Shown piece by piece: positions 2,505 through 53,237 of a stretch of 64,000 nucleotides of DNA. Location: contig JANQMU010000015.1 of assembly GCA_028279875.1 (NCBI GenBank), positions 1 through 64,000 on the forward strand, given 5' to 3'. Position 1 is the stretch's first letter, and the number at the start of each line of letters is the position of its first letter. Under the pieces are notes generated by a model. The model made no database searches. It had not been told where the DNA came from and was given only the letters and a program-made list of their open reading frames with translations. A program made the translations under genes and the position numbers. The stretch is from Rhizobiaceae bacterium. Its GTDB lineage: Bacteria; Pseudomonadota; Alphaproteobacteria; Rhizobiales; Rhizobiaceae.

Positions 2505-2564
2505 CGTGCTTCTCCATCCATGCAAGCGCAGCATGTTCCTGCCATCTGATGAAACATAAGCACA

Positions 2565-2594
2565 CCACTCCTGACAACCTCCTGTCAGGAGTGG
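2565..2594. promoter_or_regulatory. Perfect 12-base inverted repeat upstream of alkC
   Basis: CCACTCCTGACA at 2565-2576 and TGTCAGGAGTGG at 2583-2594 are exact reverse complements around a 6-base spacer (ACCTCC). The repeat sits 61 bases before the alkC GTG start and after the chemoreceptor terminator. It has no T-run on either side, so it fits a dimeric repressor or activator operator better than a terminator. The bound protein is unknown. Confidence 0.5.
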
Positions 2595-2628
2595 CAAATC
2601 CGGGGTATTCAGAAAGCATTTATTCAGC

Positions 2629-2650
2629 AAAAGGGGGCCCGCGGGCCCCC
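2629..2650 (-). terminator. Rho-independent terminator of the chemoreceptor gene
   Basis: An 18-base perfect palindrome (GGGGGCCCGCGGGCCCCC, 2633-2650) is followed on the minus strand by TTTTG. It lies 30 bases after the chemoreceptor stop codon. Confidence 0.75.
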
Positions 2651-2679
2651 AATTTCAGCGCTGATAACCGGCGCCGCCG

Positions 2680-33471: not shown

Positions 33472-36400
33472 ATGATTGCGGCCGGTCACATGGCCGCAAG
33501 GAGCAACGCGCGGCCCGTTATGAAACGAAACAAAGGCGAAAACCGAAAGCTCGAACAGGTTCTCGATCAGAACGATCGCCGTGGCGAATTGTGGATTGCG
33601 GCTTTTCAGGCGCTTGTCGCGATCACGATCGTGGCCTTTCACCTTGTATCGGCCCTGAACAATGATTGGCGGACCCTCAGCACCTCTACGCTGACGGTCA
33701 GCGCTCTCATTTTGATTGCCTGCCTGCTGCGCGTGGCGCTTGCCAAGCGACAGCCGCTGAACAACCTGCTTCTCCATGCGCTGACCGTCGCGGACGGGGC
33801 GCTGATCTACGCGCTCATCGTCTCCTACAGCGCGGCCTACGGGCTGCCCGTCGACAGCTCCTTCAGGTCGCCGACGATTGTATTTCTCGTCGTTTATACC
33901 GGTGTGCGTGTCCTCAGATTCGATCCGGTCCCCATTCTGGTGGCGGGTGCCACCGTTCTCGTCGGCTGGTTTGGCCTGTTCGCCTATGCCATGCACGCCG
34001 GCGCCACGACGACCAGGTCCTACGCTGACTATGTCACCGGCTCCGGCGTGCTGGTGGGGGCCGTCGTCGAAATGGCTGTCGGTTTCGCCGCGCTCGTTGC
34101 CTGCCTGGCCATCGCGACCGCCTATGCTCGCAGATACATTGCAACGACCGTCCATGTCGATGATCTGATGTTCGCCAATCTGCTCGCCGAGGAGAACATC
34201 GCCCGCCAGAGGGCGATCTTGAACTCGTCGGTCGACGGTATCGTCATCGTCGACGAGAACGGCATGATCGAGCGGGCCAACCCGGCCATTGAAAGACTGT
34301 TTGGCTTCACCCAGCCCGAACTCGTCGGCAACAGCGTCGCCATGCTGATGAGTGAGCAGAATGCCGCCGCCCTGCGTGCCGGCATTGCGATGTTTCTGGA
34401 GAAGGGCGAGAGCCCATTGGTCGGCAGAAGCTATGAGTCGGAGGCCCTTCACCGGGATGGTCACACATTTCCCATCGAACTCTCGATCAATGAATTCAAG
34501 AGTTCCGGCAAACAGATGTTTGGCGGATTCATTCGCGATATCCGCCAGCGAAAGGCGGCCGAAGCTCGCGAAAAGCTGGCGCGTGCGCAATTCGAGGATG
34601 CGGTCACCGCGGCGATGGACGCCATCATCATCATTGACGAAGCCGGAGACATCGTCAGCTTCAACCCGGCGGCCGAACAGATATTCGGATTTTCATCGAA
34701 GGACGTCGTTGGCCGGCGCATGGGCGATCTCATCGTCCCTGAACGCTATCGCGAGGCGCACGCCAACGGAATGCGGCGTTACATGGAGACCGGTGAGGGG
34801 CCGGTGATCAACAACCGCATCGAGATCCAGGGCCTGAAGGCGAATGGCGAGGAGATCGAGATCGAACTCGCCATCAAGGACATTGAGGGGCCGAACGGCA
34901 AATCCTTCATCGGATATGCCCGCGACATCTCACTGCGCAAGCGGGCGGAGCAGGAGATTGTCGAAGCCAAGACCCGGGCCGAAGCCGCCAATCAGGCCAA
35001 AGCCAGTTTCCTTGCGATGATGAGCCATGAGATCCGCACGCCGCTCAACGGCGTATTGGGCATCATGGGCCTCTTGCAGGACAGTGAATTGAACGGGGAG
35101 CAACAACGCCTGCTCAAGACCGCCAGGAATTCCGGCCGCTCGCTGATGCATATCATCAACGACATTCTCGATTTTTCCAAACTTGAAGCTGGTCGGATGG
35201 ACATCGAAAAGAGCTCCTTTTTCGTCGACAGCCTGGTCGACAGCGTGTCGAGCCTGATCAGGACCGGAGCCGATGAAAAGGGTTTGTCCATCCATTGCCA
35301 TATCGGCAAGACGGTGCCCCATGTGCTGTTCGGCGATCCGGATCGGCTGCGACAGATATTGCTCAATCTGGCATGGAATGCCGTGAAGTTCACCGAGCAG
35401 GGCTCCGTGAAGCTGTCGGTTGAAAATGAAGGGTCCGAGGAAAACCCCGCCATCCGCTTCAGCGTCACGGACACCGGCATCGGGATCGCGGAGGACAAGC
35501 AGGGCGAGCTCTTTGCCGAATTCGCCACGATCGACGCCAGCTATTCGCGCAAATTCGGTGGAACCGGCCTTGGCCTGGCGATCTGCAAGGCGCTGGTCGA
35601 GGCGATGGACGGCAAGATCGGCTTGAACAGCCGTCCGGGAGAGGGCTCGACCTTCTGGTTCGAGGTGCCCCTGGAGCCCGGCGATCCCGCCGCGGTGCTC
35701 GAGGAGGAACATGATGCGGCCGACGACGTGCCGAACGGCCTCAGCGGTCTGCGCGTCCTGCTCGCCGAAGACAATGTCACCAACCAGCTTGTGGCGGTCA
35801 GCAATCTCGAACGCATGGGCTGCAATGTCGACATCGTCAGCAATGGGCTGGAAGCGGTGGAGGCGGCCGGCGCGAGACCCTTTGATGTCATCCTGATGGA
35901 CGTGTCGATGCCGGAAATGGACGGCATCGCCGCCACGCGGGAAATCCGCCGCCGCGAGGGGCACAATGCCGACACGCCGATCATCGCGCTCACCGCCTAT
36001 GCGCTCGACGAGGATCGGCAGAGGGTTCTGGCGGCCGGCATGAATGATCTGGTCTCCAAACCGGTCTCCCGGCCGGATCTGGCGCGGGCCATCGCCCGCC
36101 AGACCGCTGCTGTAGCAGGACACGAAACCGCCGATCACGCCGAGGCCGGCCCGCAAATGGCGCATATCGACCAGGCGATCATGCGGGCCGCGATGGATGG
36201 CATGGACTCCGACCTGAAATCACGGCTGCTCGCTGAATTCAGGAAAGACATCGCCAGACAGGTCGACTTGGCGGTCGCCGCCCATGCGGATGCGGACTGG
36301 AAGGGCCTCGAAGCCGCAACCCACGCGCTCAAAGGCGTTGCGGGTACCCTGGGCGCGGTCGGCTTGCAGGCCGAGGCGTCCCGGATCAACACCCGGTGCC

Positions 36401-36519
36401 GTGGTGACGGGGATGCTGTCGATGCGGCCGATGTCGCGGCGCTGAAGGCGCTGTCGGAACAGGTCCTTGCCGAGCTTGATGCGCTTGAGCCGCGCATGGC
36501 CGGCGCAGACGCGGATTGA
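33472..36519 (+). CDS. Hybrid sensor histidine kinase (membrane, PAS-PAS-HisKA-HATPase-REC-Hpt)
   Basis: 1015 residues. About five to six N-terminal membrane helices (residues ~38-225) form a non-periplasmic sensor. Then come two PAS domains (~243-355 and ~368-485), HisKA with the phospho-acceptor H519 in MMSHEIRTPLNG, an HATPase domain with GTGLGLAICKALVEAM, a receiver with D810 in LMDVSMPEMDG, and a C-terminal Hpt with H951 in THALKGVAGTLGA. This is a full phosphorelay in one chain, as in LuxQ/ArcB-like kinases. The partner regulator starts 9 bases after its stop. An alternative start is the ATG at 33520. The signal is unknown. Confidence 0.93.
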   Translation: MIAAGHMAARSNARPVMKRNKGENRKLEQVLDQNDRRGELWIAAFQALVAITIVAFHLVSALNNDWRTLSTSTLTVSALILIACLLRVALAKRQPLNNLLLHALTVADGALIYALIVSYSAAYGLPVDSSFRSPTIVFLVVYTGVRVLRFDPVPILVAGATVLVGWFGLFAYAMHAGATTTRSYADYVTGSGVLVGAVVEMAVGFAALVACLAIATAYARRYIATTVHVDDLMFANLLAEENIARQRAILNSSVDGIVIVDENGMIERANPAIERLFGFTQPELVGNSVAMLMSEQNAAALRAGIAMFLEKGESPLVGRSYESEALHRDGHTFPIELSINEFKSSGKQMFGGFIRDIRQRKAAEAREKLARAQFEDAVTAAMDAIIIIDEAGDIVSFNPAAEQIFGFSSKDVVGRRMGDLIVPERYREAHANGMRRYMETGEGPVINNRIEIQGLKANGEEIEIELAIKDIEGPNGKSFIGYARDISLRKRAEQEIVEAKTRAEAANQAKASFLAMMSHEIRTPLNGVLGIMGLLQDSELNGEQQRLLKTARNSGRSLMHIINDILDFSKLEAGRMDIEKSSFFVDSLVDSVSSLIRTGADEKGLSIHCHIGKTVPHVLFGDPDRLRQILLNLAWNAVKFTEQGSVKLSVENEGSEENPAIRFSVTDTGIGIAEDKQGELFAEFATIDASYSRKFGGTGLGLAICKALVEAMDGKIGLNSRPGEGSTFWFEVPLEPGDPAAVLEEEHDAADDVPNGLSGLRVLLAEDNVTNQLVAVSNLERMGCNVDIVSNGLEAVEAAGARPFDVILMDVSMPEMDGIAATREIRRREGHNADTPIIALTAYALDEDRQRVLAAGMNDLVSKPVSRPDLARAIARQTAAVAGHETADHAEAGPQMAHIDQAIMRAAMDGMDSDLKSRLLAEFRKDIARQVDLAVAAHADADWKGLEAATHALKGVAGTLGAVGLQAEASRINTRCRGDGDAVDAADVAALKALSEQVLAELDALEPRMAGADAD

Positions 36520-36528
36520 GGTGACGCG

Positions 36529-37926
36529 ATGTCAAATGAGAACAACAATGTCCTGATTGTCGAGGACAGCGGATCGATCGCAGTGGTCTACGAATCCTGG
36601 CTGAAAAAGGCCGGTTTCTCCGCCCAGGTCGTCGATACCGGTGAACAGGCGCTGGAACACATCCGCACCGGCGCATTTCGCGTCGTGCTTCTCGATCTGC
36701 AACTGCCCGATATCAGCGGCCTCGACGTGCTCGACGCCATCGTTGCCGAAGAGTTGGGCGTGACTGTCGTCGTCGTCACCGCCAGCGGGTCAATCATGAC
36801 GGCGGTCGATGCGATGCGGCGCGGCGCCTATGACTTCGTCGTCAAGCCGGCGGCCGAGGAACGGCTGGTTACGACCACGCGCAACGCCATGGAACGGGAG
36901 GTGCTGCAGAAGGCCGTCAGCCAGATTCGCTCAGACTATGCCAAAAAGGGCGGCACCCACGGTTTTGTCGGCAACAGCCTGCCGATGATCGCCGTCTACA
37001 AGACCATCGATGCGGTGTCGCAGTCGAATGCCAGTGTCTTCATCACCGGTGAAAGCGGCACCGGCAAGGAGGTCTGCGCGGCTGCGATCCACAATGCCAG
37101 CCCGCGCCGCAAATCCCGGTTTGTGGCCCTCAACTGCGCCGCCATTCCGAAGGACCTGATTGAATCGGAGATTTTCGGCCACCTGAAGGGGGCGTTCACC
37201 GGCGCCACCTCGGATCGGGACGGCGCCGCCCTTGCGGCCGATGGCGGCACGCTGTTCCTCGACGAAATCTGCGAAATGGACATCGCCCTTCAATCCAAGC
37301 TGCTGCGGTTTCTGCAGACCGGCACGGTTCAGAAAGTCGGCAGCGACAAATCGACCAAGGTTGACGTGCGCATTGTCTGCGCCACCAACCGGGATCCGGT
37401 GCGTGAGGTCGAAGAGGGGCGGTTCCGCGAAGACCTGTTTTACCGGCTGCACGTTGTGCCGGTGTCGCTGCCGCCGCTCCGCGAACGCGACGGCGATGTC
37501 GTGGACATCGCCCGCAGCTTCCTGAAGGAAATCGCTGCGGAGGAGGGCAAGTCCTTTGGCGACTTCGCGCCAGAGGCGGAGGATGTGCTGCTGTCCTATC
37601 GCTGGCCGGGAAATGTGCGGGAACTGCAGAATGTGATCCGCAATGCAGTGATCCTCAATGAGGGCGACACGATCGGCCCGGACATGCTGTCGGTGTCCGG
37701 GACCGGGATCGTCGCACCGCGACCGGGCGACACACAGGCAAAATCACCGGTCGTGGAGGTCGATCAGATCGTGCTCAATCTCGCCCAGCCCTTTGCGAAG
37801 ATCGAAAGGGAGATTATCGAGGCGGCCATTGCGCACTGTAACAACAGTATCCCCAAGGCGTCGCAGATGCTGGATCTCAGCCCGTCGACGATCTACCGCA
37901 AGAAGGAAAGCTGGGAACAGGAATAG
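36529..37926 (+). CDS. Sigma-54-dependent response regulator, LuxO/NtrC type
   Basis: 465 residues: receiver (1-120) with D56 in VVLLDLQLPDISG and K in DFVVKPA; AAA+ domain (about 145-375) with Walker A GESGTGKEV, the sigma-54-contact loop GAFTGA, Walker B TLFLDEI and RENLFYRL-like REDLFYRLHVVP; and a C-terminal Fis-type HTH (IPKASQMLDLSPSTIYRKKESW). It should receive phosphate from the Hpt of the preceding kinase and activate sigma-54 promoters. Three such candidate promoters with upstream LuxO-like palindromes lie in the polysaccharide locus just downstream, so that locus is its likely regulon. Confidence 0.94.
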   Translation: MSNENNNVLIVEDSGSIAVVYESWLKKAGFSAQVVDTGEQALEHIRTGAFRVVLLDLQLPDISGLDVLDAIVAEELGVTVVVVTASGSIMTAVDAMRRGAYDFVVKPAAEERLVTTTRNAMEREVLQKAVSQIRSDYAKKGGTHGFVGNSLPMIAVYKTIDAVSQSNASVFITGESGTGKEVCAAAIHNASPRRKSRFVALNCAAIPKDLIESEIFGHLKGAFTGATSDRDGAALAADGGTLFLDEICEMDIALQSKLLRFLQTGTVQKVGSDKSTKVDVRIVCATNRDPVREVEEGRFREDLFYRLHVVPVSLPPLRERDGDVVDIARSFLKEIAAEEGKSFGDFAPEAEDVLLSYRWPGNVRELQNVIRNAVILNEGDTIGPDMLSVSGTGIVAPRPGDTQAKSPVVEVDQIVLNLAQPFAKIEREIIEAAIAHCNNSIPKASQMLDLSPSTIYRKKESWEQE

Positions 37927-37950: not shown

Positions 37951-37963
37951 TTGCAGAATGCAA
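37951..37963. promoter_or_regulatory. LuxO-type activator palindrome upstream of alg44
   Basis: TTGCAGAATGCAA fits TTGCA-N3-TGCAA, the motif I recall for LuxO. Its centre is about 105 bases before the predicted sigma-54 start point. An isolated perfect half-site (TTGCA, 37972-37976) begins exactly 21 bases downstream of this one. Confidence 0.65.
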
Positions 37964-38035
37964 GACGGCATTTGCATTTCTCGCAGCGGCATCTGGCCTG
38001 ACGGAAATAAACAAACAAAAACAGACGTTTGAATC

Positions 38036-38051
38036 TGGCATGTCAATTGCT
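38036..38051 (+). promoter_or_regulatory. Sigma-54 promoter of alg44
   Basis: TGGCAT-GTCAA-TTGCT matches the -24/-12 consensus (TGGCAC-N5-TTGCW), with GG and GC 12 bases apart. It places transcription start near 38062 and leaves an 18-base leader that contains GAGGAG before the ATG. Confidence 0.75.
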
Positions 38052-38079
38052 CCTTCGTGTGTGAACGAGGAGTTCGGAC

Positions 38080-39696
38080 ATGAAGATCATTCGCGAACGG
38101 CCATGTCAGAGGCGGCATCATCGCGTGACCGCGCCGTTGAATGTAACGATTGCCGGGGGTGAAACGCTCACCGCCACCAATTGGAGCCTGGGCGGGCTTC
38201 GCCTCGATGGCGTCACAGCGCCGCTTCCGAAGGTCGGTGCGACCATCGCGCTGGGCCTGCAACTGCCGTTTCAGGGCTTCGACATTTCCTTTGACGTCGA
38301 GGCGACCGTCATGCGGTCCGATGAGGCGGACGGTGTGCTGGGGCTTGAATTCGTTGCGCTCGGCGAGCGCGAGCATGATCTGATGAACCACTTCATTAAC
38401 GATCTCGTGCGCGGGCAAATGGCGACCGTGGAGGATGCCATATGCCGCATCGACGTCCCCGTCACGCCGATCTCGACCGAGCCGGACCCCAACCCGGCGA
38501 GCGCGGTTCCTATCCGGCGGATTCCCTACCGGACGATTTTCATGTCGATGCTCTACGGGGTGATCGGCCTTGCCGTCTTCGGTTATCTTTCGTTTCTCCT
38601 CTACACCAACACCATGCGCATGGAGGTGCGCTCGGCAGTTGTTTCCTCGCCGCTGGCAACGGTCAAAATGCCGCTGGACGGTCTGCTGGTCCCGGTGCGG
38701 CTGAATGTCGATGAGGAAATCCGCCAAGGGCAGCCGATCGCGCGGATTGTCAACACGAAGCTGGAATCGGAACTGGATGACCGCGAAATAGCCCTTGAGG
38801 AGGCGAAGGGCAGGCTGGCGCGGACCCGGGAGAAATACCGGATCGAAGCGGAGCGTCTGAAACTCTATCAGGTGATCAATCGGACCGACCGTCAGATATC
38901 AAAAGCCAGGCTCGAGGCGGCGCGGGAGGCGGTGGCCGCCGCCGACGCCCATTTCGAGCGGATGTCGAAACTGATGGAAAAGGGCCTGATCGTGGCCGCC
39001 AAATTCGACGCGGCGGAATTGCGGCGAACCGAGGCCGAGGCCCGGCTGCGGGAGGCCGAATACGAACTTGAGCGCGACACGGTCATGGATGCCGTATCCG
39101 GCCGGCGCTATTACAATCACAAGGAATTCGTCACCGACCTGGACATGCTTGCCCTGGAAATCGACGAAGCGTCCTCGGCAGTCCAGACAGCGCAAATGCA
39201 ACTGGAAAAATACGAGACGCTGCGCGCCGACCTGACGATAACCGCCCCCTTTGACGGACGGATCGTTTCCGTCAGCCAGCCCGGCGGGGTCACCGTGCTG
39301 CGCAACGAACCGCTCTTTACCATCGAAAAGCGGGAAGCCCCGACGGTGACGGCTTTTCTCGATCAGGACCAGGTGCTTTCGGTGGGGATCGCCGATCAGG
39401 CGAACATCTTCTTTCCGTCGCTCGGCAGGGAGGTCACGGCAACGGTCGTCAAGATCGACCGTAATTCCGCGTTTCTCGATTCCGATGCGTCCCGTTACGT
39501 CTGGAAGGACGGCAAGGAAAAATCGGCGGCGGTGTCGCTGGTCATCGATGCGGCGGAGTATGAGCGCGGCGAGGTTCGCGCTGGACTGCCGGCCGTTGTG
39601 ATGTTTCCCCGCCGAACCCGCAGCAACATCGTGCACAGGCTCGGATCGGCCGTCGGGCTGACCGGCGCCGGAGACGGTCATGACCATTCGATTTGA
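38080..39696 (+). CDS. alg44: Alg44-like PilZ / membrane-fusion protein for polymer synthesis
   Basis: 538 residues. The N-terminal PilZ domain (about 11-115) carries both c-di-GMP motifs: R11-R-H-H-R15 and N34-W-S36-L-G-G39. A single membrane helix follows (about 153-175), then an HlyD-like periplasmic part: lipoyl half SPLATVKMPLDGLLVPVRLNVDEEIRQGQPIARI, a long coiled-coil hairpin (about 225-380), second half TAPFDGRIVSVSQPGGVTVLRNEPLF and a barrel. In Pseudomonas, Alg44 binds c-di-GMP and activates the Alg8 polymerase. This protein is longer than the 389-residue Pseudomonas form, mainly in the coiled coil. It overlaps alg8 by 17 bases. Confidence 0.88.
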   Translation: MKIIRERPCQRRHHRVTAPLNVTIAGGETLTATNWSLGGLRLDGVTAPLPKVGATIALGLQLPFQGFDISFDVEATVMRSDEADGVLGLEFVALGEREHDLMNHFINDLVRGQMATVEDAICRIDVPVTPISTEPDPNPASAVPIRRIPYRTIFMSMLYGVIGLAVFGYLSFLLYTNTMRMEVRSAVVSSPLATVKMPLDGLLVPVRLNVDEEIRQGQPIARIVNTKLESELDDREIALEEAKGRLARTREKYRIEAERLKLYQVINRTDRQISKARLEAAREAVAAADAHFERMSKLMEKGLIVAAKFDAAELRRTEAEARLREAEYELERDTVMDAVSGRRYYNHKEFVTDLDMLALEIDEASSAVQTAQMQLEKYETLRADLTITAPFDGRIVSVSQPGGVTVLRNEPLFTIEKREAPTVTAFLDQDQVLSVGIADQANIFFPSLGREVTATVVKIDRNSAFLDSDASRYVWKDGKEKSAAVSLVIDAAEYERGEVRAGLPAVVMFPRRTRSNIVHRLGSAVGLTGAGDGHDHSI

Positions 39697-41275
39697 CACG
39701 GCCCTTGCGCTGGACGATCCGACGAGGTGGCCGCGCGGCCGGCAAAAATGGACGGCGGCCGTCTGGGGCCGCCTGTCTATCTACGTCGGCATCTGCCTTG
39801 TCCTGCTGATGAGCGTCCCGAATTCCATTTTCGATGCGCAGACCCGCACCATCACCTTCACCATCGGCGCGCTGGGCGCCTGGCGCTACGGCTGGTGGTT
39901 TACCCACGCCGTGCGCGCCCTGATCTACGGCCGGATCGTCTATCCGCGCATGCGCCGCAAGGGCAAGGAAATCTGGGATTCCGGCTGGCGCCCGCGGCAC
40001 CTTCATTTCATGATGACGACCTACCGGGAACACCGCCAGATCACGGAGATGGTGGTCCGTTCCATTGTCCGCGAGGTTAGAGCCTCGGGCGTTCCGGGCA
40101 CGATCTGGCTCGGATCATCCGACCGTTTCGACGAGGATGTCATCGTCGATTTCCTGGAGCGCGAGGCACGCGATGACGACATCACCCTGCGCATCATCCG
40201 TCAGAACGTCTCCGGCAAACGCGCCGCCATCGGCCTGGTGCTGCGTGCCATGTGCCGCCTTCCGGTTCTCGACGACGATCTCGTCGTCTTCATGGACGGC
40301 GATTTCGTGCTCGCCGAGGGCGCCATCGGCCGCTGCATGCCGCTTTTCCGGCTCTATCCCGATCTCCAGGCCTGTACCACCGATGAGGAGGTCGTCTGCA
40401 TCGGCCCGAAATGGATCGAAACCTGGCTGAAGATGCGGTTTGCCCAGCGCCGCCTCGCCATGCAGTCTCACGCCCTGTCCGGCCGGGTCCTGACACTGAC
40501 CGGCCGCATGTCGGTGTTTCGGGCGAGGCACCTCAAGCAGCTGGAGTTCATTCGCCTGCTCGAGGCCGATCATCTCGAGCACTGGCTCTGGGGGCGCTTC
40601 CGCTTCCTGTCCGGCGACGACAAGAGCACCTGGTACTATATGCTCAAGCACAATGCCCATATGCGCTACGTGCCCGACGCCCTTGGCTATACGATCGAGG
40701 TGATCGAAGGGTCGGGCATGGACCGCATGGTTCAGAATTTCCGGCGCTGGTCCGGCAATATGCTGCGCAACGGCGCCCGCGCCATCAAGCTGGGGCCGCG
40801 GGCCATGCCGTTCTTCATCTGGTGGTGCCTGATCGACCAGCGCCTGTCCATGTGGACCATGCTGGTCAGTCCGATGCTGGCGGTTTCGGCGGCGTTACTC
40901 GCCGGCTTCGGTTACCTGCTCTCCTATGTGCTGTTCATTGCATTGAGCCGGCTGCTCCTGTCGCTGGTGCTATGCACTTATTCGCGCAAGGTGGAACTCG
41001 CTTATGCCTGGATCCTCTATCTCAACCAGCTGATCAACGCTTCCGTGAAGGTCTATTGCATTTTCCGCCTCTCCAAGCAGCGCTGGTCGAACCGCGGCAA
41101 CCAGACCGCCGGCCTGGGCGGCCGCAGCCTGACGGAAACGGCGCGCAACGGGATGGCGGCCTGGTGCACCTCGGTCGCCGTCGGATTGCTGTTCCTCGCC
41201 ACCGTCCACTATTCGAGGCTGGTCGAAATCCCCAGCGCCGTGCAGTTGCGCGAATTTGTCGGCCTGTTCCTCTGA
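39680..41275 (+). CDS. alg8: Alg8-like family 2 glycosyltransferase (polymannuronate synthase type)
   Basis: 531 residues. Two N-terminal helices (LSIYVGICLVLLMSVPNSIFD, TITFTIGALGAWRYGWWF) precede a GT-2 domain with the DxD-type VFMDGDFVLAEGAIGRCMPLF, AMQSHALSGRVLTLTGRMSVFRA, the catalytic FLSGDDKSTWYYML and NFRRWSGNMLRNGARA. Several C-terminal helices follow (QRLSMWTMLVSPML..., SRLLLSLVLCTYSRKVELAY). The PNSIFD, TGRMSVFRA, GDDKS and RWxGNxLR segments correspond closely to Pseudomonas Alg8 as I recall it. It should polymerise and translocate GDP-mannuronate-derived chains under control of the Alg44-like partner. Whether the product is alginate proper is unproven. Confidence 0.88.
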   Translation: MTIRFDTALALDDPTRWPRGRQKWTAAVWGRLSIYVGICLVLLMSVPNSIFDAQTRTITFTIGALGAWRYGWWFTHAVRALIYGRIVYPRMRRKGKEIWDSGWRPRHLHFMMTTYREHRQITEMVVRSIVREVRASGVPGTIWLGSSDRFDEDVIVDFLEREARDDDITLRIIRQNVSGKRAAIGLVLRAMCRLPVLDDDLVVFMDGDFVLAEGAIGRCMPLFRLYPDLQACTTDEEVVCIGPKWIETWLKMRFAQRRLAMQSHALSGRVLTLTGRMSVFRARHLKQLEFIRLLEADHLEHWLWGRFRFLSGDDKSTWYYMLKHNAHMRYVPDALGYTIEVIEGSGMDRMVQNFRRWSGNMLRNGARAIKLGPRAMPFFIWWCLIDQRLSMWTMLVSPMLAVSAALLAGFGYLLSYVLFIALSRLLLSLVLCTYSRKVELAYAWILYLNQLINASVKVYCIFRLSKQRWSNRGNQTAGLGGRSLTETARNGMAAWCTSVAVGLLFLATVHYSRLVEIPSAVQLREFVGLFL

Positions 41276-41293
41276 CCGGCTCCCAACGGGCTT

Positions 41294-41306
41294 TTGCCGA
41301 TTGCAC
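41294..41306. promoter_or_regulatory. Degenerate second activator palindrome upstream of the SGNH gene
   Basis: TTGCC-GAT-TGCAC differs from TTGCA-N3-TGCAA by one base in each arm. Its centre is 21 bases (two helical turns) from the better site at 41315-41327. Confidence 0.4.
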
Positions 41307-41314
41307 ATCCGGGA

Positions 41315-41327
41315 TCGCAATTTGCAA
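41315..41327. promoter_or_regulatory. LuxO-type activator palindrome upstream of the SGNH gene
   Basis: TCGCA-ATT-TGCAA, with one substitution from the TTGCA-N3-TGCAA form. Its centre is about 99 bases before the predicted sigma-54 start point. It lies in the 164-base gap after alg8. Confidence 0.6.
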
Positions 41328-41393
41328 TATTTGCACTGACCTGACGGTCCACAGAGGCAGGGCAACCAGCTGAAATATATGAATAAAATTGTT

Positions 41394-41409
41394 TGGCATG
41401 GCTTTTGCA
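41394..41409 (+). promoter_or_regulatory. Sigma-54 promoter of the SGNH-algK-algI unit
   Basis: TGGCAT-GGCTT-TTGCA matches the -24/-12 consensus with correct GG-GC spacing. Predicted start is near 41420, 20 bases before the ATG at 41440. This also argues against longer gene starts near 41389, which would overlap the promoter. Confidence 0.75.
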
Positions 41410-41439
41410 GTTCACCGGGGGAATCAACCGGGAGCGTGT

Positions 41440-42780
41440 ATGATGCGAACCGCGAAACAAACCGTCCGGCGAGGCTGTCTCGCCATTTTTGCCCTCAGCC
41501 TGTGCTGCGCGCTGGTTATCGGCGCCATACCGGCGCTGGTCACCCTCACCGTCGATCCTTACGAATTGCTGGGCGAGCGGACACGTCCGGCCGCCGTTTC
41601 GGAATTGGCCGAAAAGGATCATTACCCGCTTTGGAAGCTGGCCCGCTACCGGCCCGGCAACCACGACACTGTCATTCTCGGCGACAGCCGGGCGAGGGCG
41701 CTTCGCGATAAATACTGGCATGAGCTGGGTGTGACGGGCGCGATCAACCTGGCCTATGGCGGCGGCACCGTTCCTGAAATCCACGCCACCTTCAATCTGA
41801 TCCGCAACGATCCGGCAATCCGCAACATCGTCGTTGGCATCCAGTTGCGTAGCCTCGACGAACGGCACAAGGGCGGCATGAACCGGGTGCCCGAGGCCGT
41901 CAGGCTTCTTGGTGGTCCGATTGAATATTTGAAAAACTGGTCGGTCGCCAAAACGGCCTTCAAGGTGTTCAAGGCGGAAAACCGGCAGACCCTGCAGATG
42001 ATCGGCGGGTTCACACCGTCCCTGGTGACGGCGGCAAGTGCGGCGGAACTGGGCCGTACCGGCAAGGTGCCGCTGCAAACGCTGCTGTCGCCGGATGTCT
42101 GCTTTGCCTGCCCCCTGCCGCAATCCGCCGCCCCGGCCGGCAGACGCCATTACGGCCGTTACGCCATGGTTCACCTGCCGCGCTGGCGCGGCACGCCGGG
42201 CCTGTGGACTAGGTCCTATCCGTCGGAACTGGCAGCTCTGTACGAACCGCAGATACAGCCGCGCGCATTGCCGGTGAAAATCCAGAGACAGGTGGACAGG
42301 AACGGACCGGCCGACTGGCGCGGCTTCGATATTTCGCCCCTCTACTGGCAGCATCTGGAGGAGATCGCGGCCTGGGGACGGCAACCCGGCAGGACCGTCA
42401 TATTCGTCATTCCGCCGACCATTGCCGAGATGCAGGCCACCATCCACCACCACGGGCTCGGCGCACTCAATATCGCGCTACGCGTCGAACTGGCGAAACT
42501 CGGCACGGTCGTGGATTTCGACTATCCGAACATGCTGACCTTTGAGGCGGACAATTTTTCCGACGCCTATCATTTCAGGTCGCCGGTCGCCCGCGCCATC
42601 GTCGGCGAGCTTGCCGCGCTGCTGCCGACCGGCGACGCCGTTCGACGCCTGGCGGCCAAACGTCGCGGTATCCTTGGCTGCGATGGCATCGGCAAGACGG
42701 CAAGCCGGTACGACGTCTCCACCGAGATTTTGATGGTCGACGATAAAAACTGCCGCAACTGGTCGCGGAGGACCCTGTGA
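41440..42780 (+). CDS. AlgJ/AlgX-like SGNH-family O-acetylation protein
   Basis: 446 residues from the ATG pair at 41440/41443 after GGGAG. N-terminal membrane anchor (LAIFALSLCCALVIGAIPALVTL), then an SGNH-type domain with the nucleophile serine in TVILGDSRARALRD (about residue 85) and the Asp-x-x-His dyad in FSDAYHFRSPVARAIV near residue 385. It sits beside an MBOAT gene, as AlgJ/AlgX and DltD-like proteins do, and probably passes acetyl groups to the polymer in the periplasm. Similarity to AlgJ is by fold and context more than close sequence, so I give no symbol. Its stop overlaps the next ATG (TGATG). Confidence 0.78.
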   Translation: MMRTAKQTVRRGCLAIFALSLCCALVIGAIPALVTLTVDPYELLGERTRPAAVSELAEKDHYPLWKLARYRPGNHDTVILGDSRARALRDKYWHELGVTGAINLAYGGGTVPEIHATFNLIRNDPAIRNIVVGIQLRSLDERHKGGMNRVPEAVRLLGGPIEYLKNWSVAKTAFKVFKAENRQTLQMIGGFTPSLVTAASAAELGRTGKVPLQTLLSPDVCFACPLPQSAAPAGRRHYGRYAMVHLPRWRGTPGLWTRSYPSELAALYEPQIQPRALPVKIQRQVDRNGPADWRGFDISPLYWQHLEEIAAWGRQPGRTVIFVIPPTIAEMQATIHHHGLGALNIALRVELAKLGTVVDFDYPNMLTFEADNFSDAYHFRSPVARAIVGELAALLPTGDAVRRLAAKRRGILGCDGIGKTASRYDVSTEILMVDDKNCRNWSRRTL

Positions 42781-43997
42781 TGTCGGAACCCCCAATCCCC
42801 ATGGCGCGGTTGCGCAACAAGGTCCTGATGGCCGGAGCCGGACTGCTGGCCCTGGCTGCCATTCTGACGGGTTTCGCGATCTGGCCGCGACAGGACCCGC
42901 ATGTGTCCGCTCCGGCCGTCGCCAGCGATCTGCGGCAGGCAAGAGCCCATGGCCGGAACGGTGATTGGAGCCGCTCCGCCCGACTGATCGAGCGGCATCT
43001 TGGCAAACGCGATCCACAGGCCAAGCTGGATTATGCGATGCTGCTGATCCGTGGCCGGGGCGTCGAGCGCGACCGTGAGCGGGCCCGGCAACTGCTGCTC
43101 CAGGCCGTCACCTATGATTTTGCCGGTCGTGGCCGGGCGGCGTTCGAGCTTGGCCGCCTGTACAAGGCGGCGACGGGTGAGGACTGCACGCGCATCGCGC
43201 TGGAGTGGTTCACCAAGGCCGCGCAGTGGGATTATGCCAAGGCGCATCTCGAACTCGGCACGGCCTATCGCAAGGGCCTTGGAACGCGTCCGGACGCGGC
43301 GAGGGCCATGAACCATTACGAGACCGCCGCAACGGGCGGTTCTGCGGCCGCGATCTGGTCGATGATCAAAATGGTCGAGATCGGGACCGCCGACATGCGG
43401 CCGGATCTGCAAAGGGCAAGGCTGCTGGCAGAGAGATATCTGCCGCGACTGGCGGCCGAGGCCCATGGCGGCAACGCCTATGCGGCCCGCACCATCGCCC
43501 GGCTTTATCTGGAAGGCACCGTCGTGGCGCGCGACCGTGACAAGGCCGGCCGGTGGTTCACGGAGGCAGCCGGCCTCGGTGACCCGGCGGCCATGCACGA
43601 CCTGGCGCGGCTCATCATGCAGGCCGGCAACGAAGCACAGGATGCCGACAGCGTGCTTGAACTTCTGCGGGAAAGCGCCCGGCGCGGTTACGCGGGCGCC
43701 ATGACGGCCATGGGCCGGCTTCACCTCAAGGAACGATACGGGCTTGCGCGCGAGGAGGCCGTCGACTGGTTCAAACGCGGTGTTGCCGCCGCCCATGGCG
43801 GCGCTATGGAGGAACTGGCGCGACTCCATCTGGACGGCGATCTGGTTATCCGCGATCCGGAAGAGGCACGACGCCTGGCCAGAATGGGCTCCAAGCTCGG
43901 CCATCGCGGATCATTGCGGCTGCTCGACGACATCAAAAGCAGGCAGGACGAATCGTCGAAAACCGTGGACGCCGCGCCTTCATCGAAACGGGGATAG
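42780..43997 (+). CDS. AlgK-like Sel1/TPR-repeat periplasmic scaffold
   Basis: 405 residues from ATG 42780 (GGAGG upstream; one-base overlap with the previous stop). One N-terminal membrane helix (VLMAGAGLLALAAILTGFAIW) is followed by about eight Sel1-like repeats between residues 80 and 380, such as AKAHLELGTAYRKGLGTRPDAARAMNHYETAATGGS and AYAARTIARLYLEGTVVARDRDKAGRWFTEAAGLGD. Pseudomonas AlgK is an outer-membrane lipoprotein with this repeat type that scaffolds the export complex. Here there is no lipobox cysteine and the protein appears anchored to the inner membrane. Confidence 0.8.
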   Translation: MSEPPIPMARLRNKVLMAGAGLLALAAILTGFAIWPRQDPHVSAPAVASDLRQARAHGRNGDWSRSARLIERHLGKRDPQAKLDYAMLLIRGRGVERDRERARQLLLQAVTYDFAGRGRAAFELGRLYKAATGEDCTRIALEWFTKAAQWDYAKAHLELGTAYRKGLGTRPDAARAMNHYETAATGGSAAAIWSMIKMVEIGTADMRPDLQRARLLAERYLPRLAAEAHGGNAYAARTIARLYLEGTVVARDRDKAGRWFTEAAGLGDPAAMHDLARLIMQAGNEAQDADSVLELLRESARRGYAGAMTAMGRLHLKERYGLAREEAVDWFKRGVAAAHGGAMEELARLHLDGDLVIRDPEEARRLARMGSKLGHRGSLRLLDDIKSRQDESSKTVDAAPSSKRG

Positions 43998-44001
43998 GAC
44001 A

Positions 44002-45504
44002 ATGGTCTTCAGCTCACTGGAATTTATCTACCTGTTTTTGCCGCCGGTCCTGCTGGGCTTCTACCTGTTGCGGGCGCTGCGCCTTGAAACCGCGATCATC
44101 TGGTGGCTGGTTCTGGCGTCCTTCGCCTTCTACGCCTGGTGGAGCCCGCCGCACCTGCTGCTGTTGTGCGGTTCGATCCTGTTCAATTACGGCGTCCACC
44201 GCCTGATGCTGCGGCGGCGCTCGCGGCCGCTGCTGGTTTTCGGTATCGCGATCAATCTCGGGCTTCTGGCGGTGTTCAAATATGCCGATTTCCTGATCGG
44301 CAATGTCAACGGGATCGCCAATTTGGAGATGACCGAGCTGGGGCTCGTTCTGCCGCTGGCCATTTCCTTTTACACCTTCCAGCAGATTTCCTTTCTGCTC
44401 GACACCTGGGCAGGGCGCACAAAGGCCTGTGATTTCAAGCGCTACGTGCTGTTCGTGACGTTTTTCCCGCAACTGATCGCCGGGCCGATCGTCATGCAGA
44501 AAGACACCATCCCGCAGTTTCGCCTGTCGGTCTTCCGCAACCGGACGATGCTCAATCTGGTGCTCGGCTCGACCCTGTTCTTTATCGGCCTGTTCAAGAA
44601 AATCGTGCTGGCCGACGGCATTGCGCCCGTGGCCAATGCGGCGTTCGGCCTGGCGGACCAGGGGCAGTCACTGCCGATGGCCGCGTCATGGCTCGGCGCC
44701 GCCGCCTATACGTTCCAGATCTATTTCGACTTTTCCGGATATTGCGACATGGCCCTCGGGCTTGCCCGCCTCTTCGGCATTCGGCTGCCGATCAATTTCA
44801 ATTCGCCCTACAAGGCGCTGAGCATTGTCGAGTTCTGGCGCCGCTGGCACATTTCGCTGTCCCGGTTCCTGCGCGACTACCTTTATATTCCGCTTGGCGG
44901 CAACCGGTCGGGGATCCTGGGCCGGCATGGTAATCTGATGCTGACCATGCTGCTTGGCGGCCTGTGGCACGGGGCCGGCTGGAATTTCGTCCTGTGGGGC
45001 GCATTACATGGCAGCTATCTGATCGCCAATCATCTCTGGACCGGTTCAGCGGTGCGTGGTGCGGTCCACGCCATGCTGCCGCGCGTTCTCTATAACGGGC
45101 TTGCCTGGGGCATCACCATGCTGGCGGTCATCGTCGCCTGGGTGTTCTTTCGCGCCGAAACACTTGCCGGCGGATTGATCATGCTGCAGAGCATGGCCGG
45201 GCTGTCGGAACTGGCTTCGGTCGGCTGGCGGGAAGTGATACCCGGGGCGCAATATGTGCCGGCGATGCTCGCCGCGATGCTGGCGATCGTCTTGTTCCTG
45301 CCGAACGGTCCCGAACTGACCGGCAATTACCGGCCGGTCCTGTTTGCCGCCAAGGAGCTTGTCGGGCCGCGGTCCGGCTGGCTGCGCATGCGCTGGTCGC
45401 CGACACCGGTCTGGGGCCTGTTGGTCGCCGCCGTGGGATCACTGTCGCTGATCCAGATCTACCGCCTCAACGACCTGACGGAGTTCATCTATTTCAATTT
45501 CTGA
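44002..45504 (+). CDS. algI: AlgI-like MBOAT O-acetyltransferase
   Basis: 500 residues from ATG 44002 (MVFSSLEFIYLFLPPVLLGFYLL, the usual AlgI-type opening). About 11 membrane helices are visible. MBOAT hallmarks are YFDFSGYCDMALGLARLFGI, FWRRWHISLSRFLRDYLYIPLGGNR and the catalytic His in LLGGLWHGAGWNFVLWGALHG (about residue 320). It transfers acetyl groups across the inner membrane for modification of the polysaccharide, together with the SGNH protein two genes upstream. It ends 18 bases before the next activator palindrome, and algD then has its own promoter. Confidence 0.92.
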   Translation: MVFSSLEFIYLFLPPVLLGFYLLRALRLETAIIWWLVLASFAFYAWWSPPHLLLLCGSILFNYGVHRLMLRRRSRPLLVFGIAINLGLLAVFKYADFLIGNVNGIANLEMTELGLVLPLAISFYTFQQISFLLDTWAGRTKACDFKRYVLFVTFFPQLIAGPIVMQKDTIPQFRLSVFRNRTMLNLVLGSTLFFIGLFKKIVLADGIAPVANAAFGLADQGQSLPMAASWLGAAAYTFQIYFDFSGYCDMALGLARLFGIRLPINFNSPYKALSIVEFWRRWHISLSRFLRDYLYIPLGGNRSGILGRHGNLMLTMLLGGLWHGAGWNFVLWGALHGSYLIANHLWTGSAVRGAVHAMLPRVLYNGLAWGITMLAVIVAWVFFRAETLAGGLIMLQSMAGLSELASVGWREVIPGAQYVPAMLAAMLAIVLFLPNGPELTGNYRPVLFAAKELVGPRSGWLRMRWSPTPVWGLLVAAVGSLSLIQIYRLNDLTEFIYFNF

Positions 45505-45522
45505 AACGCCTGTGGCGGTTCT

Positions 45523-45535
45523 TCGCAAATTGCGA
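45523..45535. promoter_or_regulatory. LuxO-type activator palindrome upstream of algD
   Basis: TCGCA-AAT-TGCGA keeps perfect dyad symmetry in the five-base arms. Its centre is about 119 bases before the predicted start point. It forms the third member of the set at 37951 and 41315. Confidence 0.6.
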
Positions 45536-45621
45536 CTCCCCGGTCCGATATCGCAAAGAAGAACCAGCATTACACGCACCAGAAATGGGATAACTATATG
45601 CAAAATATAGAAAAATGAGTT

Positions 45622-45637
45622 TGGCACGATCCTTGAA
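45622..45637 (+). promoter_or_regulatory. Probable sigma-54 promoter of algD
   Basis: TGGCAC-GATCC-TTGAA has a perfect -24 box, but the -12 box reads TTGA instead of TTGC, a deviation at a normally conserved base. Predicted start is near 45648, 30 bases before the ATG. Weaker than the other two by sequence. Confidence 0.5.
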
Positions 45638-45677: not shown

Positions 45678-47081
45678 ATGAATGTTCTGGCAAACACCGC
45701 TGAGTTTCAGCACCTCGTCCCGGTTGCGCAGCCCGTCCAGGGCGCCAGCCGGATTTCCATCATCGGCCTTGGCTATGTCGGCGCCGTGTCAGCCGCCTGC
45801 CTGTCGAGCCTCGGCCATCAGGTTGTCGGTGTGGATGTCGATCCCGCCAAGGCGGGCATGATCGCCGAAGGGCGCTCGCCGATCCACGAGCAGAATCTGG
45901 AAACACTGCTGTCCAAGGGCGTCGACAACGATCTGATCTCGGCAACCACCGACATTGTCGATGCGGTCCTGAACACGGATGTGACATTCGTGTCGGTCGG
46001 CACTCCGACATCTTCCGACGGCGGCTGTGATTTCACCTATATCCGGTCGGCGGCAAGGGCCATCGGTGAGGGTCTGTCGCGCAAGAAGGACTATCATGTC
46101 GTCGTCATGCGCTGTTCGGTTCCGCCCGCATCGACCCTGTCGGTGATGGTGCCCGAAATCGAAAAGGCATCGGGCAAGACGATGGGCGACGATTTCGGCA
46201 TCTGCTTCAACCCCGAATTCCTGCGCGAGGGCACGGCCGTTGCCGATTTCAATGACCCGCCCAAAACGGTGATCGGCGCCAATGACTGGTTCGCGGCCGA
46301 AATCGTCGCCGACATCTACCGGCCGATCGACGCCAACCCGATCATGACCACCATCGAGGTCGCCGAAATGGTCAAATATGTCGACAATGTCTGGCATGCA
46401 ACGAAAGTCTGCTTTGCCAATGAGGTCGGCCGGGTCTGCAAGCCGCTGGGTGTCGACAGCCACGCCGTCATGGATATCTTCGTCGAGGACACCAAGCTCA
46501 ACCTGTCGCCCTATTATCTCAAGCCCGGCTTCGCCTATGGCGGGTCGTGCCTGCCCAAGGAGGTGCGTGCTGTCGTCCATCTGGCACAGCAGATGGGGGT
46601 CGAAACACCGCTGTTTTCGAGCCTCGCCGAGACCAATGAGCAGCAGATCGAGGCGGCCGTTGACATGGTGCGCAAGAGTGGCGCCAAGCGGGTCGGTTTT
46701 CTGGGGCTGGCCTTCAAGGCCGGAACCGATGATCTGCGCGAAAGCCCGGTCCTGGAGGTCATGAACCGGCTGATCGAGAGCGGCTGCGAGGTCGTCGCCT
46801 ATGATGAGGCCATCAGCACCGGGACCCGTGTCGCCAATCAGTTCGACTATGTTCGCAATGTCTGCCCGCATCTCGAACTGACCGTGGCCGAATTGCCGAA
46901 ATTCCTGCGGCCCAGCGGCTTCCACGTGATCGATGAAAGCGATGTCGTTGTCGTCTCGCAGAACACGCCGGAGATCCGTCAGATCATCGCCGCGCGGCTG
47001 GAACGGGCGCAGATTATCGACCTGGTGCGGCTATTCACCACGACACCGACATTCTCCTGCTATGAGGGAATTGGCTGGTAG
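45678..47081 (+). CDS. algD: GDP-mannose 6-dehydrogenase
   Basis: 467 residues. Rossmann N-terminus ISIIGLGYVGAVSAACLSSLGHQVVGVDVD (after a ~30-residue extension absent from Pseudomonas AlgD), active-site loop NPEFLREGTAVADF, substrate region EVAEMVKYVDNVWHATKVCFANEVG, the catalytic Cys in FAYGGSCLPKEVRA, GLAFKAGTDDLRESP and a C-terminal CYEGIGW close to AlgD's EGICW ending. It makes GDP-mannuronate, the committed precursor for alginate-type polymers. UDP-glucose dehydrogenase is the main alternative; the C-terminal motif and neighbouring alg8/alg44 favour AlgD. It is followed by a terminator. Confidence 0.92.
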   Translation: MNVLANTAEFQHLVPVAQPVQGASRISIIGLGYVGAVSAACLSSLGHQVVGVDVDPAKAGMIAEGRSPIHEQNLETLLSKGVDNDLISATTDIVDAVLNTDVTFVSVGTPTSSDGGCDFTYIRSAARAIGEGLSRKKDYHVVVMRCSVPPASTLSVMVPEIEKASGKTMGDDFGICFNPEFLREGTAVADFNDPPKTVIGANDWFAAEIVADIYRPIDANPIMTTIEVAEMVKYVDNVWHATKVCFANEVGRVCKPLGVDSHAVMDIFVEDTKLNLSPYYLKPGFAYGGSCLPKEVRAVVHLAQQMGVETPLFSSLAETNEQQIEAAVDMVRKSGAKRVGFLGLAFKAGTDDLRESPVLEVMNRLIESGCEVVAYDEAISTGTRVANQFDYVRNVCPHLELTVAELPKFLRPSGFHVIDESDVVVVSQNTPEIRQIIAARLERAQIIDLVRLFTTTPTFSCYEGIGW

Positions 47082-51179: not shown

Positions 51180-53237
51180 TTAACCGACTTGCCCGGGCAT
51201 CGCCAGCATATCCGTGGAGGCCGGCGCAAAACTCTGATTGGCAACCAGCCATTGCTGGGCGATTTCGGCCGGCATTGCCGGCGCAATCGCATTGCCCTGA
51301 AACTCGGTACAGCCGAGCCGGTGGAGGGCGTCGATTTCGGCCCGCCGCTGCATGCCCTTGGCAATGACCCTCAGATCGAACCGGTTGGCAAGATGGATCA
51401 TTGCTTCGACGACCACGCGGCTGCGCTCGTTGCGGTCGATGTCCGAGATGAATTGGCGGTCGATCTTCACCCGGTCGAACACATTGGCACCGGACTGCAC
51501 CAGGGAGGCAAAGCCGGTTGGAAAATCATCGATCTCCACCTGTATGCCCAGTGCGCGCATGGTGTTGATGGCGGCAAACGCGGACTCGTCCTGCGCCTCG
51601 ATGGCAAGCGTGTCGGCGATTTCCGCGGCGAGATGACTGGCCGGAACGCCGTGGTTCCGGGCCGTGCCCGTCAAGCCCTCGATAAAGCCGTGACGTTGTA
51701 ATTCGTGGCTGGAAACAGTCAGGGACAGCAGGCCGAAATCGAGACCTTCGCGATACCAGTTGCCGGCGGTTTCAAACGCCTGGGCAAATATGATCTGGTT
51801 GAGCTTGGGCATGCGCCCTGAATTTGCCGCCAGGGCAAGGAACAGTTCGGGCTTCAGGACACCGCGATCCCTGTGGTGCCAGCGGATGCGCACATCCACG
51901 CCGACCACACGGCGTGTCGCCACGGAGATCTGCGGCTGGAAGACGGGACGGAATTCGCCGTCGCGCAGCCCGCGGTCGATATCGCCCTCAAGCGTGCGGG
52001 TGTCCTGATGGTATATTCCAAGCCTCTTGGTGAACCAGGCGTAGGTGCCCTTGCCCTGGTTCTTGGCGTCATACAGAGCCAGATCAGCGGCAATCAGCAG
52101 ATCCTCCGCCGACTCGGCATCTCTGGGGTATCGGGCAATGCCGATACTGGACTTGATCTGCGAGGTCACCCCGAGAATGTCGATCGGCCGATCCAGCACC
52201 GCCAGGATGTCCTCGGCAATCGCTTCTAGTTCGTCCTGGGTGGATTCTGCGGTCCGGATGATGATGAATTCGTCTCCGCCCATGCGGCATGCGACCTGAT
52301 CGTCATTGGAAAACCGATCCAGCCGCGCGCCCACCGCCTCGAGCAGCTTGTCGCCATACAGATGGCCGTAGCCGTCATTGATCTTCTTGAAATTATCAAG
52401 GTCGAGATGGAACACCGCGATATTTAGCACCTCGCCGGTGTCGACCGGGGTCGTGGCGTCATGCAGCAATTTGATTGCGAATTCCCGGTTGGCAAGGCCC
52501 GTCAGACCGTCATGCTCGGCGGCATATTGCATTTCGTCGCGCGCGGCGATCAATTCGCGCGTCCGCCTCTCGATCTGGTTGGCCAGCGGGCGAAAGAGGA
52601 GCAGCCAGATGACGGCCAGAAGGGCAAGCGACAGGCCGATGATCAGGATGTGGACATTGCTGATGGCGGCAATGGAGGACCTTGCCTGCTGGCGGTAGAT
52701 ACCGATGACCTGGTCCATGGCGGGCAGGACCTGCGATGCCGCGATCTCCTCCATCGGCCCAAGATAGATGGCAGCCGTATCGGGCGAGTCCGGGGCCAGC
52801 CTGCCGAGCTGCCGGGCATTGGTGATCAGTGACCTGATCCGGTAGTCAAGCTGGTCCGGCGAGGAAAAATAGATGTCATAAAGGCGTTGCAGGGCCGCGT
52901 CGTCATCCCGCGCGGCATTGACCTGCCGGGCGAATTGCGTGTGCATGCGTTCCATCGTTTCGATGGCGTTTTCCAGCATGGCCAGACTCTCGATGCGGTG
53001 CTGCCTGCTGGTGGCGTGGAGGGCCCGCTCGCCCAAGAGGACGATCCGTTGCGACAGCATGCGCTGTTCACTGATGTTCTGAAGGATTTCCGAATCATCC
53101 TGTCCGCGTTCGACGCTGACATTCATCAGGAAATAGGAGGCGCCCAGCAGAACCAGCATGGCAGAAAGTGCCGTCAGATAGGCAATGCGGATCTTGAACT
53201 CGGATTGCGGCCCGAGATTTCTGAACAGACTCCTCAT
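51180..53237 (-). CDS. Membrane GGDEF-EAL protein with degenerate EAL domain
   Basis: 685 residues: membrane helix (ALSAMLVLLGASYFLM), a periplasmic PilJ-type helical sensor (SEQRMLSQRIVLLGERAL, to about residue 195), a second helix (VHILIIGLSLALLAVIWLLLF), GGDEF (about 235-400) with an intact CRMGGDEFIII, and an EAL-like domain (about 415-670). The GGDEF half should make c-di-GMP; no RxxD inhibitory site is visible. The EAL half reads GVDVRIRW for the EALLR region, LTVSS for the metal-binding NLS, and VIAKGMQ for the catalytic AEGVE, although DDFPTGFASL and KIDRQF remain. It is therefore probably not a phosphodiesterase. Its product could feed the Alg44-like PilZ protein. Confidence 0.9.
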   Translation of the reverse strand: MRSLFRNLGPQSEFKIRIAYLTALSAMLVLLGASYFLMNVSVERGQDDSEILQNISEQRMLSQRIVLLGERALHATSRQHRIESLAMLENAIETMERMHTQFARQVNAARDDDAALQRLYDIYFSSPDQLDYRIRSLITNARQLGRLAPDSPDTAAIYLGPMEEIAASQVLPAMDQVIGIYRQQARSSIAAISNVHILIIGLSLALLAVIWLLLFRPLANQIERRTRELIAARDEMQYAAEHDGLTGLANREFAIKLLHDATTPVDTGEVLNIAVFHLDLDNFKKINDGYGHLYGDKLLEAVGARLDRFSNDDQVACRMGGDEFIIIRTAESTQDELEAIAEDILAVLDRPIDILGVTSQIKSSIGIARYPRDAESAEDLLIAADLALYDAKNQGKGTYAWFTKRLGIYHQDTRTLEGDIDRGLRDGEFRPVFQPQISVATRRVVGVDVRIRWHHRDRGVLKPELFLALAANSGRMPKLNQIIFAQAFETAGNWYREGLDFGLLSLTVSSHELQRHGFIEGLTGTARNHGVPASHLAAEIADTLAIEAQDESAFAAINTMRALGIQVEIDDFPTGFASLVQSGANVFDRVKIDRQFISDIDRNERSRVVVEAMIHLANRFDLRVIAKGMQRRAEIDALHRLGCTEFQGNAIAPAMPAEIAQQWLVANQSFAPASTDMLAMPGQVG

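Follow-up and report, generated by a model that had tools for sequence, protein, structure and literature searches.

A candidate LuxO/SypG-type sigma-54 circuit at an alginate-type locus of a Rhizobiaceae bacterium

What switches on a cluster of alginate-type genes that lies directly behind the gene of a LuxO-like activator of sigma-54 promoters? The question is raised by a stretch of 64,000 nucleotides from a Rhizobiaceae bacterium (GenBank assembly GCA_028279875.1, contig JANQMU010000015.1, positions 1 to 64,000 of the forward strand; hereafter the window), for which a sequence-only reading had proposed a single LuxO/NtrC-type regulator acting on three transcription units. The analysis described here makes it quite probable that a two-component circuit of the LuxO/SypG type controls an alginate-type extracellular matrix. 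If so, the polymer would in these alphaproteobacteria be under sigma-54 and a phosphorelay, and not under the AlgU stress sigma factor of the Pseudomonas model.

Paired sites and their candidate activator

Three palindromes, TTGCAGAATGCAA (37951-37963), TCGCAATTTGCAA (41315-41327) and TCGCAAATTGCGA (45523-45535), are proposed as activator sites. Each is followed by a -24/-12 element on the plus strand, namely TGGCATGTCAATTGCT (38036-38051) ahead of alg44, TGGCATGGCTTTTGCA (41394-41409) ahead of a gene named SGNH, and TGGCACGATCCTTGAA (45622-45637) ahead of algD. The letters of all six are as the sequence-only reading gave them, and so are two companions at a distance of 21 bases, the half-site TTGCA at 37972 and the degenerate copy TTGCCGATTGCAC at 41294; a further right half-site (CGCAA), contained in the word at 45544, had not been listed there. 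The centres of the palindromes lie 79, 73 and 93 bases from the -24 element at sites 1, 2 and 3, respectively, and the spacing of 79 is likewise found in a genome of the same genus (G003). The elements have GG at -24, GC at -12, the right spacing and the conservation of sigma-54 promoters, with the exception of algD, which has GA at -12. The shared form of the palindromes, placed ahead of these promoters, had been equated with the LuxO site, and it does match the LuxO operator TTGCAWWWTGCAA (PMC10162802, PMC11443567, cited, like all papers below, from partial texts), with W3 exact in two of the three window sites and GAA in the first.

In the window the palindrome pattern TYGCANNNTGCRA occurs three times versus 0.72 expected, and the sigma-54 pattern TGGCRYGNNNNTTGM, which was composed after inspection of the sites, three times versus 0.52 expected, each count being reached in one of 100 shuffles. 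The loose motif TTGCANNNTGCAA with two mismatches gives no signal by itself (26 found versus 28 expected). Genome-wide (6.9 Mb) the palindrome is found 23 times versus 5 for its reversed control, and the simulated chance that any three of these 23 fall within 7.6 kb is 0.006. The composite TYGCANNNTGCRA-N56..86-TGGCNYNNNNNTTG occurs four times in the same genome and never in the reversed control. Three of these composites are the window pairs and the fourth precedes a gene with RTX repeats and a DUF4114 domain, so that all four stand before protein genes. The genome G003, whose control yields a single match, also has four composites, of which three stand at the orthologous positions and the fourth elsewhere, and at least one composite is present in 9 of the 14 genomes searched. 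Relaxing the palindrome to TGCANNNTGCR added no site in the window's genome (G000); other matches of this looser composite were G370:C1:1121221 and G433:C1:128729.

The candidate activator is encoded on the plus strand at 36529-37926 and has the receiver (REC), AAA+ and Fis-type helix-turn-helix domains (Pfam) of a LuxO/SypG-type sigma-54 activator; it carries GAFTGA (residue 221) and SPSTIYRK (residue 451). Nine bases ahead of its start ends the gene of a hybrid sensor kinase with the Pfam architecture PAS-PAS-HisKA-HATPase-REC-Hpt (33472-36519, plus strand). RpoN is encoded in the genome. The best solved relative of the activator is LuxO (5ep0, 1e-137; next 3e-96), and three SypG-like proteins are 50-54% identical to it, compared with 54% for the five LuxO proteins from Vibrionaceae; the activator's score of 602.5 bits is below the LuxO equivalog cut-off of 800 (NCBIfam NF041946). 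Six recognition-helix residues are reported as critical in Vibrio cholerae LuxO (Ser423, Ile425, Tyr426, Arg427, Lys428 and Leu429; PMC11407668). Five of them are identical in the window protein (SPSTIYRKK); at the sixth position it shares K with the SypG-like proteins.

In a tree of 55 proteins, for which the program warns of long branches and which leaves aside the regulators of loci L155, L156 and L159, 11 alg-linked regulators, that of the window included, form one group with six Robiginitomaculaceae proteins (99/98). Vibrio LuxO (100/100) and the SypG-like proteins (100/100) form groups of their own apart from it, and the window regulator lies in neither clade. The regulator of L165 falls next to the alg-linked group, and that of L158 falls outside it.

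Recurrence and change of the elements in related genomes

A search of 397 genomes of the order gave relatives of alg44 in 23. The comparison set comprised 15 loci including the window, which is not independent of L035, a locus of the same genus. Using a -24/-12 weight matrix and scores set by hand from the consensus, and counting target regions where the start could be placed, we obtained a score of at least 14 in all 35 target start regions (14 before alg44, 14 before SGNH, 7 before algD), or in 35 of 37 if a sixteenth locus with a regulator, L165, is added. Only 2 of 52 control regions, taken before alg8, the Sel1-repeat gene, algI and the regulator, scored as high (Mann-Whitney p 2e-15), and shuffled target regions did so in 2.1 of 35 cases on average, with a maximum of 7. 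All matches but one lie 21-75 bases upstream of the start. Palindromes and -24/-12 elements alike are found again ahead of these genes in related genomes, and at the level of sequence the motif conservation on which the sequence-only reading had staked its proposal holds.

The same matrix, at a threshold of 13.5, recovers a known system. Of the 46 loci with more than 20 kb of sequence, 25 have a LuxO-type palindrome with a -24/-12 match within 1.2 kb of luxO, the best pair being spaced 56-104 bases. These include 24 of the 29 loci assigned to Vibrionaceae by record titles, where the pair matches the known qrr promoters beside luxO. The strict sigma-54 pattern matched 4 of 61 loci, none of them from Vibrionaceae, where the -12 element reads TGC after a different base.

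The promoter-like element goes together with the regulator. A -24/-12 match precedes alg44 in 14 of the 15 loci with the regulator on the same contig, and in none of eight alg44-alg8-algD clusters without an adjacent regulator (L161-L164 and L166-L169, from family f2 and genome G074), in which the maximum score is 13.5 (Fisher p 2e-5). When contigs L160 and L171, which stand outside this first table, are included, one of ten clusters without an adjacent regulator has a match and p is 5e-5. In G207 and G186 the regulator was located just beyond the fetched stretch. A whole-genome search at E 1e-95, which covered the genomes of these eight clusters except G074, revealed no regulator in six; G414 has a partial match that lacks the DNA-binding end. 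Among 24 regions of the eight clusters, one has a 9-of-10 palindrome (before algD of L162). Three f2-family alg44 relatives obtained as search matches (L060, L062 and L066) carry one in-frame stop each.

The palindrome was examined without regard to its known form. Among 9,216 gapped palindromes scanned in ten loci, TTGCA-N3-TGCAA ranked first, with 21 sites in 16 of 22 promoters; in 25 shuffles the top-ranking word, whichever it was, reached 3-6, and none of 33 control regions contained the operator. The loci were divided into groups A, B and C after the sites had been seen, and over all 35 promoters TTGCA-N3 is still first (16). In L036, L153 and L154, the regulators of which form a 100/100 group (clade B), TTCGA-N3-TCGAA has 11 sites in 6 of 9 promoters (best shuffled count 2-4). 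The top word of group B is GATTT-N3, with 8 sites in 7 of 9 promoters; in the loci read, it coincides in part with some TTCGA-N3 sites. Neither palindrome is clear in L158 and L159. Second sites whose distance from the main site is 20-22 or 41-43 bases, values picked after the data were seen, number 7 versus 0.49 in shuffles, and none of 300 shuffles reaches 7. If the sites are indeed operators of these regulators, the loci provide naturally varied pairs of regulator and operator in which changes of LuxO-type DNA recognition can be studied.

Related modules were observed outside the alginate-type loci. In Robiginitomaculaceae (Litorimonas and Hellea; L079:7923-16711, L194:4705-9758) the sister regulator and a PAS-HK-REC-Hpt kinase adjoin outer-membrane efflux genes, in L079 together with an MBOAT gene, and LuxO-type palindromes precede the efflux gene, which is a predicted second target of the kinase-regulator module. 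Composite pairs of a LuxO site and a -24/-12 element also lie beside other LuxO-type regulators in Methylovulum, Aquibium, a Thiotrichales metagenome-assembled genome and Pseudovibrio (L144 near 9391, L109:426, L139:9040 and L146:3510).

The distant RTX operon and the alginate-type cluster

The fourth composite of the window's genome is located on contig C105 (C77 in G003), ahead of the gene of a secreted-type protein with calcium-binding RTX repeats and a DUF4114 domain; in both genomes this gene is followed by those of an ABC exporter and an HlyD-type membrane-fusion protein, together a type I exporter. Of 15 genomes searched, 14 have a full-length relative of the RTX gene, and the match in G207 consists of repeats only. 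The RTX gene shares a 20-kb stretch with alginate-type genes in 7 of the 14 relatives' stretches and also in L165, and directly follows algD in G071, G059 and G370. In G389 a composite separates an RTX gene from a divergently oriented one with AlgA domains. Before the RTX genes the -24/-12 score is at least 14 in 8 of 14 cases and the palindrome score at least 9 in 5 of 14. Because the RTX genes of relatives lie within or near the alginate-type cluster, the distant operon is best explained as a displaced member of the alginate-type gene set that would have kept its promoter type. Polymer and RTX matrix protein would then be joined in one regulon with four named target units.

An RTX/DUF4114-type gene is still found near seven of the eight regulator-less clusters, so that, of the two, it is the RTX partner and not the control circuit that is older or more stable. 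In G019 a reading frame (L046:570-2075) fuses the middle and later part of the LuxO-type regulator (residues 178-433) to a later portion of AlgD, and the RTX gene follows immediately (2115-3989); this looks like the relic of a deletion of the intervening alg genes, or an assembly fault.

The cluster itself, on the plus strand, begins with an alg44-like gene (38080-39696; PilZ and HlyD-type domains) and an alg8-like family-2 glycosyltransferase gene (39680-41275), the product of which has no solved relative at E 0.01. The next gene (41440-42780) occupies the same place in relatives and has no family match in Pfam, NCBIfam or PDB, the name SGNH being that of the sequence-only reading; its start was taken as ATG 41440, since the mechanically assigned TTG 41389 lies ahead of the -24 element. 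It is followed by the gene of an AlgK-like Sel1-repeat protein (42780-43997; Pfam Sel1), a weak assignment, as it scores 32.6 bits with the AlgK model against a cut-off of 700, by an algI-like MBOAT acyltransferase gene (44002-45504; best solved relative DltB), and by the algD-like gene (45678-47081), the product of which matches GDP-mannose 6-dehydrogenase 1mfz with 405 bits (next relative 269). The names alg44, alg8, Sel1 and algI follow Pfam domains and gene order. By domains and order, then, the window holds a GDP-mannose dehydrogenase with an Alg8/Alg44/AlgK/AlgI-like set, AlgK being the weakly assigned member, and relatives' clusters include AlgA-type and phosphomannomutase genes. The polymer is likely alginate.

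Other features were seen around these genes. About 4 kb beyond algD, on the opposite strand, lies a GGDEF-EAL gene for turnover of cyclic di-GMP (c-di-GMP) (51180-53237), of interest here as Alg44 has a PilZ domain. Several relatives encode, between algI and algD, a conserved protein of about 650 residues without a Pfam match (L153:14269-16296; 35-61% identity), which is missing from the window. The cluster of G389 may be on a plasmid or chromid, since ParA- and RepB-type partition genes stand directly ahead of it (L155:4489-6781).

The proposed circuit, its alternatives and known systems

The genes, the sites, the -24/-12 elements, their conservation and their co-occurrence can be read directly from the sequences, and they suggest the following course of control. 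By way of its own REC and Hpt domains, the hybrid kinase would transfer phosphate to the activator's receiver. The activator would bind TTGCA-N3-TGCAA about 70-110 bases ahead of the -24/-12 element, in many cases paired with another site at a distance of 21 or 42 bases on that face of the helix, and its AAA+ domain would drive sigma-54 RNA polymerase; by analogy with LuxO and SypG, the phosphorylated form would open the promoters. Four units would be switched: alg44-alg8, SGNH-Sel1-algI, algD and, on another contig, the RTX/DUF4114 gene with its own type I exporter. With four units under one activator, the putative polymer and the secreted protein, a probable matrix component, would be made together, and control of Alg44 by c-di-GMP may act as a second gate. 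The earlier assignment of three units to one LuxO/NtrC-type regulator agrees with the LuxO-like regulator, the sites and their recurrence, but it drew the regulon too narrowly, leaving out the fourth site with the RTX gene and exporter.

Several observations weigh against this reading. L165 (1120-7650), which has the kinase, regulator, alg44, alg8 and algD, scores only 12.6 before alg44 and 11.8 before algD and is an exception; conversely, L160 reaches 14.2 although no regulator adjoins it. A distance of 34 kb separates regulator and cluster in G389, and the regulator of G086 falls outside the alg-linked clade. Exact composites are absent from 5 of the 14 genomes (G150, G207, G433, G434 and G437), the loci of G150 and G207 being among the 15, and the clade-B and f51 loci have no TTGCA palindromes.

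The best surviving alternative, itself improbable, takes the -24/-12 elements as real and assigns the palindromes to another DNA-binding protein, the LuxO-type regulator acting elsewhere. Such a division would account for the group C loci and L165, where the regulator is retained but no TTGCA palindrome is present, and the binding of the palindrome by the regulator is itself a prediction. It is harder to reconcile with the identity of the palindrome to the printed LuxO operator and of five of six critical recognition-helix residues, with sites that change along with the regulator subclade and second sites in helical phase, and with a genome that offers no other composite site as the regulator's target.

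Considerably less credible is a quorum-sensing LuxO that would act through Qrr-type small RNAs and affect the alginate-type genes secondarily. The family likeness to LuxO speaks for it; against it, the LuxO equivalog cut-off was missed and all four composites of the genome precede protein genes. Rfam detected no Qrr in the window or L189, the rest of the genome not being scanned, and did detect the Qrr beside luxO in Aliivibrio fischeri L133 as a control. Qrr-type control was rejected on this result. Finally, a chance yield of three look-alike pairs without shared function from GC-rich DNA, which the one-in-100 shuffle counts of each single motif would allow, is contradicted by the genome composites, the operator scan, the in-phase sites and the promoter scores of 35/35 versus 2/52, and hardly deserves further consideration.

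Given control by the LuxO/SypG-type circuit, a broader and decidedly tentative idea is that the alg-linked regulators may represent a third, alphaproteobacterial branch of the family, dedicated to a two-part matrix of alginate-type polymer and RTX protein. The operator would have changed with the regulator in one subclade, from TTGCA-N3-TGCAA to TTCGA-N3-TCGAA, and such a history would suggest that control of surface polymers is an older role of the family than small-RNA quorum sensing.

Three known systems invite comparison. In Pseudomonas aeruginosa the NtrC-family regulator AlgB of the AlgB/KinB pair binds the algD promoter, the transcription of which requires AlgU (PMC3815931). A response regulator of the NtrC family that acts, or in the window is predicted to act, at algD is common to both; the window differs in having -24/-12 elements, where P. 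aeruginosa requires AlgU (sigma-22), and three separate promoters. A general link of sigma-54 with exopolysaccharide genes has been described (PMC3162934).

LuxO of Vibrionaceae resembles the window regulator in domain order, in 54% identity, in the operator and in its spacing to the -24 element. Its target is a small RNA, as at L133, whereas the candidate targets in the window's genome are protein operons. Moreover, LuxO receives phosphate from the separate protein LuxU, and in the window the kinase and Hpt domain form a single protein.

The closest parallel is the SypF-SypG system of Vibrio fischeri, where phosphorylated SypG drives four syp promoters (PMC3843225) and also activates qrr1 (PMC10162802, which gives both the LuxO and the SypG operators). 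In both systems a LuxO-type sigma-54 activator adjoins a REC-Hpt kinase and polysaccharide genes, and several sigma-54 units, putative ones in the window, lie within one polysaccharide locus; the order of REC-Hpt kinase, activator and glycosyltransferase around the SypG-like gene of A. fischeri (L211) is that of the window. SypG differs from the window regulator in belonging to a separate clade, and the window differs from syp in its alginate-type cluster and in a proposed regulon that adds the RTX protein and its exporter. No copy of the SypG operator TTCTCANNNTGMDWN occurs on either strand of the three window promoters, and identity of the sites with it was rejected. The sequence-only reading had called the circuit undescribed. 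In the open-licence literature, judged by titles and opening abstracts, no LuxO-type regulator of alginate-type genes in alphaproteobacteria was found, and in this sense the description stands; the precedent of SypG at syp takes the novelty from the design. The proposed circuit thus looks new for an alginate-type polymer, and its design is one already known from V. fischeri SypG.

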